A stretch of 64,000 bases of DNA from Pannonibacter phragmitetus DSM 14782. Its GTDB lineage: Bacteria; Pseudomonadota; Alphaproteobacteria; Rhizobiales; Stappiaceae. Positions 32,338 to 41,027 of the stretch are shown one piece after another; positions within the stretch are counted from its first letter, which is position 1, and each line of letters begins with the position of its first letter. A program made the translations under genes and the position numbers. The stretch covers positions 62,001 to 126,000 of the forward strand of contig NZ_KB908221.1 in the NCBI RefSeq assembly GCF_000382365.1. The letters run 5' to 3'. The notes beneath the pieces were generated by a model. It worked only from the letters and a program-made list of their open reading frames with translations, was not told the origin of the DNA and ran no database searches.

Positions 32338-32697
32338 TCAGCCCAGTTCGCCCATTTCCAGCGCCATTTCCCAGGCTACCGGATCATAGCCGAGCAAGGT
32401 GCGGCCCTTGGCTTCGGCAATCGGACGCTTGATGGCTGAAGGGTGCTCCAGCATCAAAGCGATGGCGCTGGCATTGTCCTTGACCGCATCCTGCACCTCA
32501 TACGGCAGCTTGCGCCAGGTGGTGCCGCGCCGGTTCAGAACCTGTTCCCAGCCGAAGGCCTCGACGAACTGCGCCAGCTTTTCTGCGTCCGCACCGTCCT
32601 TCTTGTAGTCATGAAAGGTGTAGGCCACACCGGCCCCATCCAGAAAGGCGCGGGCCTTCTTCACCGTGTCGCAGTTCTTGATTCCATAGACGATCAT
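32338..32697 (-). CDS. ArsC/Spx-fold reductase, YffB family
   Basis: 119 residues. The thioredoxin-like ArsC fold starts MIVYGIKNCDTVKKARAFLD with one Cys (C9); the C-x-x-C of Spx is absent. Conserved TFHDYKKDG, NRRGTTWRKL and HPSAIKRPI follow, the last being the Arg-loop of the family. YffB proteins are proposed glutathione-dependent reductases of unknown substrate; arsenate reductase activity is not implied. Confidence 0.9.
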   Translation of the reverse strand: MIVYGIKNCDTVKKARAFLDGAGVAYTFHDYKKDGADAEKLAQFVEAFGWEQVLNRRGTTWRKLPYEVQDAVKDNASAIALMLEHPSAIKRPIAEAKGRTLLGYDPVAWEMALEMGELG

Positions 32698-32895: not shown

Positions 32896-34593
32896 ATGGC
32901 CCCACCGCAAATGCGCACGCCGCCCGGCAACGGACCGCTTCAGCAGCAGCTGCGGCTTTACTCCGGGCTGATCCTCTTTGTCTTTGCCAGCACTCATTTC
33001 CTCAACCATGCGCTCGGCAACATATCGCTGGACTGGACACAATGGGGGCAGGATCTGCGCCTCATCATCTGGTGGTCATGGCCTGGAACAGTGGCACTTT
33101 ACGGCGCATTGGCCGTGCATGTGGGGCTTGCCCTGTGGCGCATCGCAGCCCGGCGCACCTTCCGGATGCCCGTCTGGGAAGCGGTACAGATCCTGCTGGG
33201 CCTGTCCATTCCCTATATGCTGATCCGGCACATCTACATGACCCGGGGCGCGGCCGGGATCTACAATGCGCAGATGGACTATCAGCATGAGCTGTCCACG
33301 CTTTGGCCCGCCTCCGGCGTTACGCAGAGCCTGCTGCTTCTGCTCGTCTGGCTGCATGGCTGCGTCGGCATTCATTTCTGGCTGCGGCTGAAGCCCTGGT
33401 ATCCACGCTGGAGCGGCATACTGTTGACGCTGGCCGCGGCTGTTCCGGTTCTGTCGCTGACGGGCTGGATCAATGGCGCAAGACGGCTGGTTCTGGAAGG
33501 GCAGTACCAGCTCAAGGTCACGGCGGAACAGACCGCACAGCTGCAGGTCTATACCGATATCAGCCGTGCAGCCTTCTTTTCGCTTCTGCTGCTGGTCCTG
33601 GTCATCTCGCTGGTCCGCCAGCTGGCGCCGGCGGGGCGCAAGGCTTTCACCGTGCACTATCTGGGCGAAAAGACCGTCCGTGCCAGACCCGGCCCAACCC
33701 TGCTCGAGATCAGCCGCATGCGCGGCGTACCCGTCATGTCCGTCTGCGGCGGGCGCGCCCGCTGCTCCACCTGCCGCACGCTCATTGTCTCCGGCGACGC
33801 GGGTCTGCATGCGCCCGGGGAAACGGAGGCGCATGTGCTCAAGCGCATACACGCAGGCAAGAATGTCCGCCTCGCCTGCCAGATCCGCCCCGAGACGGAT
33901 CTGGTCGTCCGCCCCCTGCTCCATGGCGGCACAGCCATTCCCCGCGAAGGCCTGCAGGACCGCTACCGCTGGGGCACGGAACAGCCGGTGGTCGTCATGT
34001 TCGTCGATCTGCGCGGCTTTACATCCTTGAGCGAAGGCAGGCTTCCCTTCGACGTGGTCTTCATCCTCAACCGCTATGTCGACAGCGTGGTGCGCGTGAT
34101 CCGGAACCATAACGGGATGATCGACAAGGTGATGGGCGACGGCATCATGGCCCTGTTCGGCATTGAAAGCACGTTCGAGAAGGGCTCCCGGGATGCTTTG
34201 CAGGCAATCGTCAACCTTGCGGCCGAACTCAAGCACGTGAACCGGGATCTTGCCGCCCAGCTGAACGGTCCCTTGCGGATTGCCGTCGGCCTGCATGGCG
34301 GCCCGGCCATCCTTGGCCGCATCGGCCTTGACGGGCGCAACGGCGTTGCCTCGGGCCTGACGGCCCTTGGCGATGTGGTCAATGTTGCCAGCCGGCTGGA
34401 AGGCGTTGCCAAGGAGCACAACGCCACCTGCGCCCTCTCGCGCGACATTCTGGACGCCTCGGGCCTGTGGCTCGAACCGCTGCGCCCCTTCCACCAGGTG
34501 CCGATCCGCGGACGGAAGGAACCGCTGGAGGTGGCCTGCGTGGAGAACCTGGCACTGCTGCAAAGAGCTCTCTCCGGCAACAAGGCGGCATGA
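32896..34593 (+). CDS. Membrane adenylate cyclase with diheme-type anchor and [2Fe-2S] domain (CyaC-like), copy 1
   Basis: 565 residues from ATG 32896 (MAPPQMRTPP), with AAGAGA 8 bases upstream. Six membrane helices cover about 20-245 and carry H34, H38, H75, H112, H154 and H160, resembling the heme-binding anchor of SdhC-type succinate:quinone oxidoreductases. A ferredoxin domain (about 248-345) has C284-x5-C290-x2-C293 and C328 for a [2Fe-2S] cluster. A class III cyclase domain (about 360-545) has metal Asp D371 (FVDLRGFTSL) and D415 (IDKVMGDGIMALFG), plus GDVVNVASRLEG. This matches Sinorhizobium CyaC, a quinone-responsive diheme-B adenylate cyclase. It likely makes cAMP according to respiratory redox state. 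Confidence 0.92.
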   Translation: MAPPQMRTPPGNGPLQQQLRLYSGLILFVFASTHFLNHALGNISLDWTQWGQDLRLIIWWSWPGTVALYGALAVHVGLALWRIAARRTFRMPVWEAVQILLGLSIPYMLIRHIYMTRGAAGIYNAQMDYQHELSTLWPASGVTQSLLLLLVWLHGCVGIHFWLRLKPWYPRWSGILLTLAAAVPVLSLTGWINGARRLVLEGQYQLKVTAEQTAQLQVYTDISRAAFFSLLLLVLVISLVRQLAPAGRKAFTVHYLGEKTVRARPGPTLLEISRMRGVPVMSVCGGRARCSTCRTLIVSGDAGLHAPGETEAHVLKRIHAGKNVRLACQIRPETDLVVRPLLHGGTAIPREGLQDRYRWGTEQPVVVMFVDLRGFTSLSEGRLPFDVVFILNRYVDSVVRVIRNHNGMIDKVMGDGIMALFGIESTFEKGSRDALQAIVNLAAELKHVNRDLAAQLNGPLRIAVGLHGGPAILGRIGLDGRNGVASGLTALGDVVNVASRLEGVAKEHNATCALSRDILDASGLWLEPLRPFHQVPIRGRKEPLEVACVENLALLQRALSGNKAA

Positions 34594-34701
34594 GACATGC
34601 GCTGCGGTATTCTGGCAGATGCTTGACGGGTTCTTGACTTGCCCATCACAAACCCGGCGGCATAAAAGCCCAGAAGCGTGATGGAGGACCCGGACAGGGA
34701 T

Positions 34702-36420
34702 ATGACGATCCGAGAGTTCAGACTTCTGCAAGGCAGCCCACCTGCCCTGCAGCGCATCAGGCTCGTCTCGGGCCTGATCCTGTTCACATTCGCATCCCTG
34801 CATTTTCTAAATCATGCTCTGGGGCTCGTGTCGCTGGAGGCGATGGAAGCCGGTCAGCGCTGGCGCACATTGATCTGGCAGTCGCTTCCCGGCACTGTGG
34901 TGCTTTATGGAGCGCTGCTGGTTCATGTATCTGCGGCGCTCTGGCGGATTGCCGGGCGCCGGACATGGAAGATGCCGGTCTGGGAAGCCGCGCAGATTCT
35001 CCTCGGCCTCCTGATCCCGATCCAGCTGATCCAGCACATCGCCGTAGCGCGCGGTGCGGCAGAGATCTTTGATGCCGGCAGCAACTACCAGAACATCCTG
35101 CTGCTCATGTGGCCCGGTGGGGCCATTGCGCAGACGCTCCTGATGCTGGCGGTCTGGCTGCATGGCTGCATCGGCATTCACCACTGGCTGAAGCTGAAAG
35201 CCTGGTATCCGCGCTGGCAGATGCTGCTTTACGGGCTGGCCGTGGCGGTTCCCCTCCTGGCCACCAGCGGCTGGATCACGGCCGCGCGCAGCCTGGCGGC
35301 TGATGGCAAGACAGCAACCTGGCTGCGAAGGGAGCAGCTGGACGCACTGGCAACCTATGTTGCTGCTGGCGAAGCGGTGTTCTTCACCGCTCTCGCCCTG
35401 GTCGCGGCGTTGCTGTTCTGGAGCCAGACATCGAGCCGCATCGCCCGCAGCCTGACGATCAGCTACGCAGGCGGGAAGGCACACAGAGTGAAGCCCGGCG
35501 CCACGCTGCTCGAAATCAGCCGCCTGACTGGGGAACCGGTCCTGTCGGTTTGCGGCGGCCGGGCACGCTGTTCCACCTGCCGCACGCTGATCATCGAAGG
35601 AGCCGGCACGCTGCCAGCGCCGGAACAGGCCGAACTGCAGGTGCTCAAGCGCGTGCATGCACCCCCGAATGTGCGGCTTGCCTGCCAGATCAGGCCGCAC
35701 GCCGATCTGACAGTCCGCCCCCTGCTGCGCGGCACCGGCACACAGAACGGAGAGGCGGCACCGGAGAACCTGCGCTGGGGCACGGAGCAGCAGATCGCCG
35801 TGATGTTCGTCGATCTGCGCGGCTTCACGGCCCTGAGTGAGGGCCGGCTGCCGTTCGATGTGGTCTTCATCCTCAACCGTTATGTGGACAGCGTCACCCG
35901 TGTCATCCGCAGCCATGGAGGACAGGTGGACAAGGTCATGGGGGACGGCGTGATGGCCCTTTTCGGCCTCAATGAGGGCCTTGGCAAAGGAGCAGCATCC
36001 GCCCTGCGTTCTATTCCCGCCCTGTGCAAGGAACTGAACGTTCTGAACCAGAGCCTTGCTCCCCAGCTGAGCAGCCCCCTGGAGCTTGCCATCGGCCTGC
36101 ACGCAGGCCCTGCCATCCTGGGGCAGATCGGACTGGAGGAAAGCACCGCAGGCGGCGGCTCGCTGACCGCGCTGGGAGACGTGGTGAACGTCGCCAGCCG
36201 CCTTGAAGGGGTCGCCAAGGATGCGAACGTGCTGGCGGCCATTTCACTGGACACACTGGAGGCGGCGGGCATCCGTCTTCCAACATGTGAGGCAGTCAGG
36301 ACGGTGAGCGTGAAGGGCCGCAGTCAGGCCGTGTCCGTGGCCTGCATCAGCAACGCGTCCTTACTGCGCGAGGCACTCAGCCCCGGACAGGGCGCCCATC
36401 CGGACGGGCATGCTGCCTGA
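34702..36420 (+). CDS. Membrane adenylate cyclase with diheme-type anchor and [2Fe-2S] domain (CyaC-like), copy 2
   Basis: 572 residues from ATG 34702; GTG 34678 or ATG 34681 could add up to 8 residues. Same architecture as the gene 108 bp upstream: six helices with SLHFLNHALG, LLVHVSAALWR, QLIQHIAVA and WLHGCIGIHHW conserving every heme-ligand candidate; ferredoxin motif SVCGGRARCSTCRTLI with the fourth Cys in RLACQIRP; cyclase residues in MFVDLRGFTALSEG and VDKVMGDGVMALFG. The two proteins are clear paralogs. Divergence is strongest in the linkers and around the end of helix 6, so the pair may differ in redox set point or form heterodimers. Confidence 0.92.
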   Translation: MTIREFRLLQGSPPALQRIRLVSGLILFTFASLHFLNHALGLVSLEAMEAGQRWRTLIWQSLPGTVVLYGALLVHVSAALWRIAGRRTWKMPVWEAAQILLGLLIPIQLIQHIAVARGAAEIFDAGSNYQNILLLMWPGGAIAQTLLMLAVWLHGCIGIHHWLKLKAWYPRWQMLLYGLAVAVPLLATSGWITAARSLAADGKTATWLRREQLDALATYVAAGEAVFFTALALVAALLFWSQTSSRIARSLTISYAGGKAHRVKPGATLLEISRLTGEPVLSVCGGRARCSTCRTLIIEGAGTLPAPEQAELQVLKRVHAPPNVRLACQIRPHADLTVRPLLRGTGTQNGEAAPENLRWGTEQQIAVMFVDLRGFTALSEGRLPFDVVFILNRYVDSVTRVIRSHGGQVDKVMGDGVMALFGLNEGLGKGAASALRSIPALCKELNVLNQSLAPQLSSPLELAIGLHAGPAILGQIGLEESTAGGGSLTALGDVVNVASRLEGVAKDANVLAAISLDTLEAAGIRLPTCEAVRTVSVKGRSQAVSVACISNASLLREALSPGQGAHPDGHAA

Positions 36421-36631
36421 CTCAAGTCCCGCCATGAGAAGGTGGCGCAGCATGCAGGTTTAAGGACAGGAAAAGCGAGAAAATACAAATTTCTAGCTAT
36501 GGACGGCTTGTCCCTCCATTGCGATGATGGGCTGAGTGGCAAACTGCCGCCAGCCCCAGCTCATCCGCCCGGCCATCTGCGGCCCGGAGGTTTGGGGCAG
36601 GCAGGCAAAACAGGACTCGGGCGGGGCACCC

Positions 36632-38215
36632 ATGATCTCGAAATACTTTTTGGCAGGCGGCTTTTTAGCCGCCGCGGCAACGGCTCTCCATGCGGAACCG
36701 GTCACATTCCGCTATGCCTATCAGGGCGGGCTGAACAGCCTTGATCCCTATTCGCTCAACGAGACCTTCTCCCTCTCCGCTCTCGGCAATGTCTATGAAG
36801 GGCTGGTGCGGCGGAACGCGAAGCTGGAGCTGGAGCCCGCACTCGCCGAACGCTGGGAGATGCTGAGCCCGGTGCACTGGCGCTTTCACCTGCGCAAGGA
36901 TGTGCGCTTTCACGACGGCGGCACGCTGACGGCAGATGACGTGGTGTTCTCCGCCACGCGCGTCCGGTCGCCAGGGTCTGACGTGGGCACGCGGCTGCCC
37001 GCAGGCACGGAAGTGGTGGCCGTTGACAGCCATACCGTCGACTTCCACCTGACGTCCCCTGCCCCGGCGCTGCCCGCCGAGTGGGAAACCTGGTACATCA
37101 TGGACAAGGAATGGACGGAGGCAAACGGCGCCGTTCCTGTCACCTCGGCGTCGAGCGCTGCGCCGGGCGCAGCCGCATTGAAGGCCAACGGCACCGGCCC
37201 CTACCGGATCATCAGCCACGAGCCAGGCCTCAAAACCGTCTACGGCAAGAACCCGGACTGGCGGGATGCCACGGACGGCCTGCCGGAGCGGGTGGAGTTT
37301 TCCGCCGTCACATCCGGCCCCACCCGCGTTGCCGCTCTTCTCTCCGGCGAGCTGGACATGATCTATCCGGTGCCGGTGCAGGATATCGCGCGGGTGGACC
37401 AGAGCCCATCCGCCCAGGTGCTCAGCGGGCCGGAACTGCGCACGCTGTTTCTGGGCCTCGATCAAAGCCGTGACGAGTTGCTTTACTCCGATGTGAAGGG
37501 CAGCAACCCGTTCAAGGATGTGCGGGTGCGCAAGGCCGTCTATCAGGCGATCGACACAGGCGCCATCACCAGCAAGATCATGCGCGGCATGGCCGAACCT
37601 GCCGCACTCCTCGTCAGCCCGGTGCTGTTCTCCCGCGCAGGGGAGTTTACGCGCCTGCCCTACGACCCTGAGGCCTCCCGGCGCCTGCTGGCAGAGGCGG
37701 GCTATCCGGACGGCTTCGCCCTGACACTCGACTGCCCGAATGACCGCTACGTCAACGACGCCAGCATCTGCGAGGCCGTTGCTGCCATGCTCTCGAAGGT
37801 TGGCATCAGGACCCGGGCGGACATCCAGCCCAAGGCGAAATACTTCGGGCGCATCCTGCCCACCGGCGGCTATGACACTTCCTTCTATCTGTTCGGCTGG
37901 ACTCCGGCCGACTTCGACAGCCTCAGCCTGCTGCAGGCGGTTGCCATGTGCCGGAATACGGCCACGGGAGAAGGCACCTTCAACATTGGCGGCTACTGCA
38001 ACGAACAGGCAGATGCCCTGATCCGCCAGCTTGCCGGCGAGGAAGACAAGGACCGGCGCGCAGACCTCACCGCGCAGATCTACACCCTGCTCAACGGGGA
38101 TGTTGCCTATATCCCGCTGCATCAGCAGAAGCTGGCCTGGGGCATTTCAAACCGGTTCCATGTGGAGCAGCGGGCCGATGACCAGTTCCTGTTCCGCTTC
38201 ATCCGGCAGCAATGA
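36632..38215 (+). CDS. ABC transporter substrate-binding protein, family 5 (peptide/opine type), orphan
   Basis: 527 residues from ATG 36632. Signal peptide MISKYFLAGGFLAAAATALHA before EPVTFRYAYQGGLNSLDPYS. SBP_bac_5 marks include NVYEGLVRRN, WRFHLRKDVRFHDGGTLTADDVVFS and the C-terminal DVAYIPLHQQ. It is periplasmic and binds a peptide, opine, sugar or metal complex. No permease or ATPase gene lies near, so it must share an unlinked transporter. It is followed by a large hairpin. Confidence 0.9.
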   Translation: MISKYFLAGGFLAAAATALHAEPVTFRYAYQGGLNSLDPYSLNETFSLSALGNVYEGLVRRNAKLELEPALAERWEMLSPVHWRFHLRKDVRFHDGGTLTADDVVFSATRVRSPGSDVGTRLPAGTEVVAVDSHTVDFHLTSPAPALPAEWETWYIMDKEWTEANGAVPVTSASSAAPGAAALKANGTGPYRIISHEPGLKTVYGKNPDWRDATDGLPERVEFSAVTSGPTRVAALLSGELDMIYPVPVQDIARVDQSPSAQVLSGPELRTLFLGLDQSRDELLYSDVKGSNPFKDVRVRKAVYQAIDTGAITSKIMRGMAEPAALLVSPVLFSRAGEFTRLPYDPEASRRLLAEAGYPDGFALTLDCPNDRYVNDASICEAVAAMLSKVGIRTRADIQPKAKYFGRILPTGGYDTSFYLFGWTPADFDSLSLLQAVAMCRNTATGEGTFNIGGYCNEQADALIRQLAGEEDKDRRADLTAQIYTLLNGDVAYIPLHQQKLAWGISNRFHVEQRADDQFLFRFIRQQ

Positions 38216-38813: not shown

Positions 38814-41027
38814 ATGCGACCTGCAAGCTCTTCGAGCGCCCGCGAACTGACCCTCGACATCTCCGGCATGACCTGCGGCAGCTGTGCCGCACGGCTGCAG
38901 CGCTCCCTCTCGGCTGTCGACGGGGTGGCGGAAGCCAATGTGAACCTTGCCCTGGAAAATGCCCGGCTGGCGCTGGTGCGGGACATTCCCGTGCCGGACC
39001 TGATTGCCGCCGTGGAAAAGGCCGGTTTTTCGGCCCGCCTGCATGAGGATGAAGCCGCCAAGGCCCGGGCAGAACGCGAAAAGGCCGAAGCCGCCGCACG
39101 GGCGGAAGACCGCAAGGCCTTCCTGCTGTTCGTGATGGGCGCTGCCTTTTCCCTGCCGCTGGTCATCTCGATGGCGCTGATGCCTTTCGGCATCCACTGG
39201 ATGATCCCCGGACTGGTGCAGCTGCTGCTGGCAACCCCGGTGCAGATCCTGCTGGGCGCCCGCTTCTACCGGGGCGCCTTCAAGGCCGTGCTTTCGGGCG
39301 GTGCCAACATGGATGTGCTGGTCGCCCTCGGCACGTCTGCCGCCTATGGCTACAGCCTCTACCGCATATTCGTGCCGGATCCCTCTGGCGTGGAGCATCT
39401 TTATTTCGAAGCGTCCATGGTGATCCTGACGCTGGTCCTGCTCGGCAAGCTGCTGGAAAACCGCGCCCGCCGCGCCACCTCTGCCGCCGTGCGGGCGCTG
39501 ATGGCACTGCGGCCGGAAACCGCCAACAAGATTGACGGCGATACGGTCACCACCGTTCCCATTACGGAGATCCGCCTGGGCGACCGGGTGCTGGTGCGCC
39601 CCGGCGAAAGAGTGCCGGTGGACGGCCAGATCGAGAAGGGCAAGAGCGAGCTGGACGAAACGCTGATCACCGGCGAGAGCCTGCCGGTGACCCGTTCTGC
39701 CGGCGATCACATCACCGCAGGCACCATCAACGGCTCCGGTGCTCTGACCGTTGAAGTGCTGGCGCTGGGGGAAGAAACCGTCCTTGCCCGCATCATCAAG
39801 CTGGTCGAGACAGCGCAAGGGCGCAAGGCGCCGGTGCAGAAGCTCGTCGACAAGGTATCGGCGATTTTCGTGCCGGTGATCATCGTCTTCGCCCTTCTCA
39901 CCTTTGCCGGATGGATGATCTGGGGCAGCAGCCTTGATGCGGCCATTGGCGCAAGTGTGGCCGTGCTCGTCATCGCCTGTCCCTGCGCCCTGGGCCTTGC
40001 CACACCCACGGCCCTTGTGGCTGGAACTGGCGCTGCGGCGCGGGCGGGCATTCTCATCCGCGACATCGAAGCGCTGGAAGTGGCGCACCGGCTGAAGCTC
40101 GTGGCCTTCGACAAGACCGGCACGCTGACACGCGGCGCCCCTGCGGTCACCGATGTCATCGCCTTTGACCGGGACAATGACGGCCTTCTGGCCGCCGCAG
40201 CCTCCGCCCAGCTGGCCAGCGAGCATCCGCTGGCCCGGGCCATGGTGGAAGCAGCCAGAGCCAAGGGCCTGCCGCTGTCCACGCCGGACGAGTTTGAGGC
40301 CGTGCCGGGCGAAGGCATTGCCGCCATGCTGGGCGGGCATTCGCTGGTGATCGGCAACCGGGCCCTGATGGACCGGTTGAAGGTGGAAAGCATCACCGCA
40401 GACTCCATCCGCAAGTCTCTGGAAGGCGAAGGCAAGACAGCCGTCCTTGCTGCGCTGGATGGCCGCGCCGTCGGCGTCATCGCCTTTTCCGACACGCTGC
40501 GTGACACGTCGGCACAAGCGATCCAGGAACTGCGGGAGATGGGCATCCGCACCGTGATGATCACCGGCGACAGCGAGACCGTTGCCCGCAAGGTGGCCGC
40601 TGAAGCCGGCCTTGATGAGGTGCGTGCCGGCGTGCGCCCGGATGGCAAGGCCAAGGCCATCGAGGCCCTGCGTGCGGAAGCTGGCGGCGCCGTCGGCATG
40701 GTGGGCGACGGTCTTAATGATGCGCCAGCTCTTGCAGCCGCCGACATCGGCATTGCCATGGGCTCCGGCGTGGATGTGGCCATGGAGGCTGCCGGCATCA
40801 CGCTGATGCGCTCGGACCCGCTGATGGTGGCGGCCGCCGTGCGTGTTTCCAAGGCAACGCTTACGAAGATCCGGCAGAACCTGTTCTGGGCCTTCGCTTA
40901 CAATGTCATTGGCATTCCGCTGGCGGCCTTTGGCATGCTATCCCCCGCCTTTGCCGGGGCTGCGATGGCGCTCAGTTCGGTTTCCGTTGTCACCAACGCG
41001 GGCCTGCTGAAGCGCTGGAAGCCTTGA
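38814..41027 (+). CDS. copA: Copper-exporting P1B-type ATPase
   Basis: 737 residues. One N-terminal HMA domain (C21-x2-C24 in SGMTCGSC), a charged Ala/Glu/Lys linker, then the P-type core: TGES in the actuator domain, the transmembrane metal motif C389-P390-C391 (VIACPCALGLATP), phosphorylation site D433 in DKTGTLT, the HP motif of the nucleotide domain (SEHPLARAM) and GDGLNDAPAL. The C-terminal membrane pair has YN and MALSSVSVVTNA, marks of Cu(I)-transporting ATPases. It pumps Cu+ out of the cytoplasm. It is driven by the copper promoter ahead of the chaperone gene. Confidence 0.95.
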   Translation: MRPASSSSARELTLDISGMTCGSCAARLQRSLSAVDGVAEANVNLALENARLALVRDIPVPDLIAAVEKAGFSARLHEDEAAKARAEREKAEAAARAEDRKAFLLFVMGAAFSLPLVISMALMPFGIHWMIPGLVQLLLATPVQILLGARFYRGAFKAVLSGGANMDVLVALGTSAAYGYSLYRIFVPDPSGVEHLYFEASMVILTLVLLGKLLENRARRATSAAVRALMALRPETANKIDGDTVTTVPITEIRLGDRVLVRPGERVPVDGQIEKGKSELDETLITGESLPVTRSAGDHITAGTINGSGALTVEVLALGEETVLARIIKLVETAQGRKAPVQKLVDKVSAIFVPVIIVFALLTFAGWMIWGSSLDAAIGASVAVLVIACPCALGLATPTALVAGTGAAARAGILIRDIEALEVAHRLKLVAFDKTGTLTRGAPAVTDVIAFDRDNDGLLAAAASAQLASEHPLARAMVEAARAKGLPLSTPDEFEAVPGEGIAAMLGGHSLVIGNRALMDRLKVESITADSIRKSLEGEGKTAVLAALDGRAVGVIAFSDTLRDTSAQAIQELREMGIRTVMITGDSETVARKVAAEAGLDEVRAGVRPDGKAKAIEALRAEAGGAVGMVGDGLNDAPALAAADIGIAMGSGVDVAMEAAGITLMRSDPLMVAAAVRVSKATLTKIRQNLFWAFAYNVIGIPLAAFGMLSPAFAGAAMALSSVSVVTNAGLLKRWKP

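Follow-up and report, generated by a model that had tools for sequence, protein, structure and literature searches.

The most probable reading of this locus, which we put at roughly 70%, is that it encodes two complete CyaC-type redox sensors, copy 1 being the resident gene and copy 2 an old divergent paralogue, and that each works as a separate homodimer. The two genes are adjacent open reading frames on the same strand, both encoding complete proteins, at 32896-34593 and 34702-36420 of the window, that is, of the whole 64,000-nucleotide stretch of DNA analysed. Their domain make-up, intact residues, synteny and position in the tree are directly established. A preliminary description had reported a tandem CyaC-like pair, each member joining a membrane anchor, a [2Fe-2S] domain and a cyclase, and this is borne out by the reading frames, the Pfam matches and the six hydrophobic segments. 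The features of the locus are as follows.

32338-32697, minus strand: ArsC-family gene flanking the cyclases on the upstream side, a conserved neighbour (Pfam PF03960, synteny)
32896-34593, plus strand: copy 1, CyaC-type adenylate cyclase of 565 aa, start ATG at 32896 (open reading frame, translation)
32947-33633, plus strand: copy 1 SdhC/FrdC-like six-helix anchor, H34/H38/H75/H112/H154/H160 (hydrophobicity, predicted model, Foldseek, conservation)
33634-33915, plus strand: copy 1 [2Fe-2S] ferredoxin domain, C284/C290/C293/C328 (Pfam Fer2, E 1.4e-8, conservation)
33982-34410, plus strand: copy 1 class IIIb cyclase domain, D371/K411/D415/T489/N496/R500 (Pfam Guanylate_cyc, conservation)
34594-36450, no strand: stretch that the closest relative (G004) lacks, containing copy 2 (blastn)
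34594-34701, plus strand: intergenic region of 108 bp between the copies, upstream of copy 2
34702-36420, plus strand: copy 2, the other CyaC-type adenylate cyclase, of 572 aa (open reading frame, alignment with copy 1, conservation)
34753-35439, plus strand: copy 2 six-helix anchor, with the same six histidines as copy 1; T116A adjoins H112 (hydrophobicity, conservation)
35440-35721, plus strand: copy 2 [2Fe-2S] ferredoxin domain (Pfam Fer2, E 6.4e-6)
35722-35787, plus strand: copy 2 linker between ferredoxin and cyclase, with D355E and Y357L at near-invariant sites (conservation)
35788-36216, plus strand: copy 2 class IIIb cyclase domain, catalytic set complete, R475Q (Pfam, conservation, PDB alignment)
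36536-38215, plus strand: gene for a family-5 solute-binding protein, a conserved neighbour on the downstream side (Pfam PF00496, synteny)

Within each copy the order is six hydrophobic segments, then Fer2, then Guanylate_cyc, the two Pfam families being matched by both copies above their curated cut-offs. The proteins align without gaps over 561 aa at 56% identity. The frame of copy 2 is open from a GTG at 34678, and the ATG at 34702 is the start that matches copy 1 in the alignment. Our scan of the region between the copies detected no consensus sigma-70 promoter or terminator, and a comparison of 34594-34701 with the upstream regions of relatives found no similarity.

The anchor shows six hydrophobic peaks per copy in the hydrophobicity plot and six long helices in the predicted model of copy 1, which was built from four sequences and has a mean pLDDT of 72. 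When this model was compared with the PDB by Foldseek, the only confident matches were to chain C of Wolinella quinol:fumarate reductase (2bs4_C, probability 1.00, TM 0.52, E 0.14; 1e7p_C, probability 0.99, E 0.25), the remaining matches listed having probabilities of 0.20 or less. At the sequence level, NCBIfam sdhC_b558_fam matched 13 of 31 anchors weakly (best E 0.0029) and a sequence-profile search of the anchor against the PDB returned no match. The full-length predicted model is of low confidence and does not resolve the ferredoxin domain. The passages on the ferredoxin adenylate cyclase cluster in the 2016 eLife survey likewise compare its anchor to SDH/FRD cytochrome b (PMC4821796).

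Ligand and catalytic residues are strongly conserved. In an alignment of 78 relatives, H34, H38, H75, H112 and H154 are invariant (78/78), as are the four cysteines of C284-x5-C290-x2-C293...C328, and H160 is kept in 76. The six histidines, the four cysteines, D371 and D415 are all present in copy 1 and in copy 2, in agreement with the initial claim that both copies keep the cluster ligands and both metal-binding aspartates. K411, T489, N496 and R500 are also intact in both and stand, with D371 and D415, among the near-invariant columns. T489 aligns with the threonine found both in Pseudomonas aeruginosa CyaB and in a photoactivated cyclase, as expected for a class IIIb adenylate cyclase; this PDB alignment was made with copy 2, and the copy 1 residues are those at equivalent positions. 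Pfam domains, residue conservation, Foldseek and the PDB alignment of the cyclase thus all uphold the CyaC-like identity first proposed.

Do all six conserved histidines bind heme? Their conservation in both copies stands, but six is too high a number of likely ligands. Two aligned cyclase-less homologues (L148 and L147) keep H34, H75, H112 and H154, while position 38 is alanine in both and position 160 is leucine in L148 and tyrosine in L147. Because these proteins keep just those four, H34, H75, H112 and H154 are the likely axial heme ligands, and the cyclases would have some other cause to keep H38 and H160. The four match the four precisely spaced histidines, with two hemes predicted, that the survey reports in its account of the ferredoxin adenylate cyclase cluster (PMC4821796).

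The cyclase-less anchor-plus-ferredoxin genes come from three g56 genomes (G171, G278, G232; g56 is a genus), where they adjoin a gene for an MscS-type channel on the same strand (L148:2458-5546, plus; L147:2319-5512, minus; L151) and overlap it in L147 and L148. With the four likely heme histidines kept in both aligned proteins, this arrangement suggests a putative redox-sensing module partnered with a channel.

Is copy 2 simply a duplicate on its way out? A long branch and a dN that is higher relative to dS than among the congeneric orthologues of copy 1 could be taken that way, but the 572-codon frame is open and 102 of 106 near-invariant columns are unchanged, all ligand and catalytic positions among them. 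Copy 2 departs from four of these columns (T116A, D355E, Y357L, R475Q) and copy 1 from none; in leave-one-out counts the maximum is five departures, and two members besides copy 2 have four, so that copy 2 does not look decayed. We consider decay very unlikely, and the earlier statement that neither copy looks decayed holds.

The two copies have different histories. Copy 1, the family's resident gene, has been inherited vertically and is syntenic across the family: in most family loci compared, the genes run M15 peptidase, ArsC, cyclase, solute-binding protein. All four other congeners compared (G001, G002, G003 and G004) have a single full-length copy, at the syntenic locus in those examined, and one full-length copy is also found in G006, a member of a related genus. 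The closest relative, G004, with 93% DNA identity, has the orthologue of copy 1 at the same locus at 95% identity. In a blastn comparison with this genome, identity ends where copy 1 ends, at its stop codon, and picks up again at 36451-36452 of the window. The site of copy 2 is occupied in G004 by 53 unrelated bases, in which no relic of copy 2 was recognised. Further downstream, the window holds a gene for a heavy-metal P-type ATPase (38814-41027); a gene of this kind, identified by sequence motif, immediately follows the cyclase in another family of the same order (L132:5560-7836).

In the tree, copy 2 forms a long branch (0.98) beside its own genus (g1) and G006, with support of 100/97; in a smaller set it falls beside g1 alone (93/88). 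Its placement is uncertain because the branch is long. AU tests, for groups picked after inspection of the tree, rejected copy 2 as the sister of copy 1 (p-AU 0.008) and, weakly, its grouping with copy 1 and the G004 orthologue (p-AU 0.037). A recent tandem duplication is ruled out by the tree and the AU test. Copy 2 is an old, divergent side branch that has evolved fast and arises near the genus stem. Synonymous divergence is saturated and was discarded as a clock. A plasmid origin of copy 2 was also rejected: plasmid homologues have about 40% identity among the matches listed, and all are below 60%.

How copy 2 came to lie beside copy 1 can be read in two ways. At somewhat under even odds, it was acquired horizontally from an unsampled relative in the family and inserted next to the resident gene, a matter of origin only that is compatible with the preferred reading of function. 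Its presence in one of five congeners, its long branch at the genus stem and the segment boundary at the stop codon of copy 1 fit such a gain. However, codon usage, GC3 and composition are as native in copy 2 as in copy 1, its nearest homologue among 87 family genomes does not exceed 57% identity, and we saw neither mobile elements among the neighbouring genes scanned nor convincing direct repeats at the segment boundaries (an 11-bp repeat is probably due to chance). A duplication near the genus stem, retained here and later lost in several lineages, has not quite an even chance: the native composition, the tandem position and the branching at the genus stem, or at that of the genus plus G006, all accord with it, but repeated losses would be required and the 53-bp gap of G004 bears no recognised trace of copy 2.

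Adjacent pairs are rare. A strong match was obtained in 74 of the 87 family genomes, and two adjacent full-length copies in three, namely G071, G103 and the genome of the window. Samples of 397 genomes from the order, 385 from the class and 398 from the phylum, which overlap in part, contain many single copies but not one further pair of full-length neighbours. The two other pairs (loci L082 and L083) belong, with G076, to genus g2, by inference Roseibium, and consist of a clade I copy followed by a clade II copy. Both copies in the window belong to clade I, and by the tree the pairs are of independent origin. A comparison of G071 with G103 gives dN/dS values of 0.11 (first copy) and 0.14 (second copy), as against 0.10 between copy 1 and its G004 orthologue; both members of that pair are under purifying selection, so the co-residence of two copies can be retained. 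In this survey of synteny and neighbouring duplicates the window's pair is not a stable locus, as the four other congeners compared all lack it; by the preliminary description's own standard, this absence within the genus speaks against a paired device. The pair is a species-level oddity within its genus, with an independent parallel, and no established two-part device. That co-resident pairs recur at a single locus is suggestive of duplication or displacement at this site.

Clade I and clade II genes also occupy one locus in different species of a single genus (L084, L098), in two species of which both are present together (L082, L083); this may reflect an old pair that lost different members in different species, or displacement of one gene by another at the site. 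Elsewhere the gene is missing or broken. Most genomes of code g6 (for example G009, G014 and G032) have no CyaC-type gene at the threshold used, and cyaC frames are disrupted at G018:C39:20211-21921, with stops inside the matches, and at G013:C1:4463960-4465608, in two frames. The broken frames suggest that cyaC may be dispensable.

Published work on Sinorhizobium meliloti CyaC describes hemes oxidised or reduced by ubiquinone, activation that can follow oxidation by quinones, and cAMP acting with the Crp-like receptor Clr. For the present pair, heme and cluster content, cAMP formation, quinone response, dimer state, tuning and division of labour are what we infer. H34, H75, H112 and H154 would ligate two heme b in the anchor, which would exchange electrons with quinones of the pool; the [2Fe-2S] domain and the linker behind it would relay the redox state to a homodimeric class IIIb cyclase, and this would then form cAMP. 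In the window's genome there are eight matches to class III cyclases and twelve cNMP-binding matches, so cAMP receivers are available. Each copy most likely forms its own homodimer, and copy 2 probably serves as a second sensor, re-tuned or redundant, that was either retained from a stem duplication and lost by sister species or regained from an unsampled relative, and that lies in the resident locus of the window's species only.

Could the two copies instead work as partners, as heterodimers or as two sensors whose different redox midpoints yield a graded cAMP output? Both are intact, the Roseibium-type pair has been retained under the dN/dS values given above, and tuning could lie in the departures of copy 2 at near-invariant sites, T116A near the heme ligand H112 and D355E and Y357L in the linker. 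Obligate heterodimers, however, would be expected to show reciprocal losses, each partner having complementary catalytic gaps, and the full catalytic set in each copy means that neither needs the other. Class III bacterial adenylate cyclases, including CyaC, are moreover described as homodimers (PMC10463352). Together with the lack of the pair in the other congeners, this makes a functional partnership unlikely, and the heterodimer or two-threshold proposal made at the outset finds no support. The specific version in which the H112-adjacent and linker changes shift the set-point or the coupling of copy 2 is slightly less likely still; if true, the cAMP made from one locus would report on two different quinone-pool states. 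The doubled cyaC overturns nothing known. Few links have been proposed from the redox state of the quinone pool to cAMP, and CyaC-type cyclases are among them; two complete, divergent versions set against single-copy relatives offer a natural comparison of sensor tuning.

The architecture itself, a six-helix anchor followed by ferredoxin and cyclase, is already known from S. meliloti CyaC and from a cluster in the 2016 eLife survey. The best PDB match of the anchor, subunit C of Wolinella succinogenes quinol:fumarate reductase (2bs4, 1e7p), has the same diheme membrane anchor fold, but is a respiratory enzyme subunit without a signalling-domain fusion. Cluster 1 of the 6TM adenylate cyclases (for example Rhodopseudomonas palustris Q132R4) shares the SdhC/FrdC-like anchor, the four spaced histidines, the ferredoxin and the class IIIb cyclase; its members are described as single proteins, and tandem pairs are not mentioned in the passages of the survey that describe them (PMC4821796). 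S. meliloti CyaC (SMc01818) has in common the six-helix diheme-b anchor, the [2Fe-2S] domain and the class III cyclase, and its catalytic residues, named as Lys410 and Thr484 (PMC10463352), lie at nearly equal positions by published numbering (K410/T484 there, K411/T489 here). There, however, a TetR-type gene, cycR, lies upstream, whereas here an ArsC-family gene does and the cyclase is present in two tandem copies. The CyaC-CycR-Clr context was not recovered, as no TetR-like gene occurs among the ten neighbouring genes scanned; the genome has 18 TetR_N matches, none of them on the window's contig (C7). The closest parallel to the doubling is in the presumed Roseibium genomes G071 and G103, where two complete CyaC-type genes are likewise adjacent at the same syntenic locus; those pairs unite the anciently separated clades I and II, whereas the window's pair lies within clade I only.
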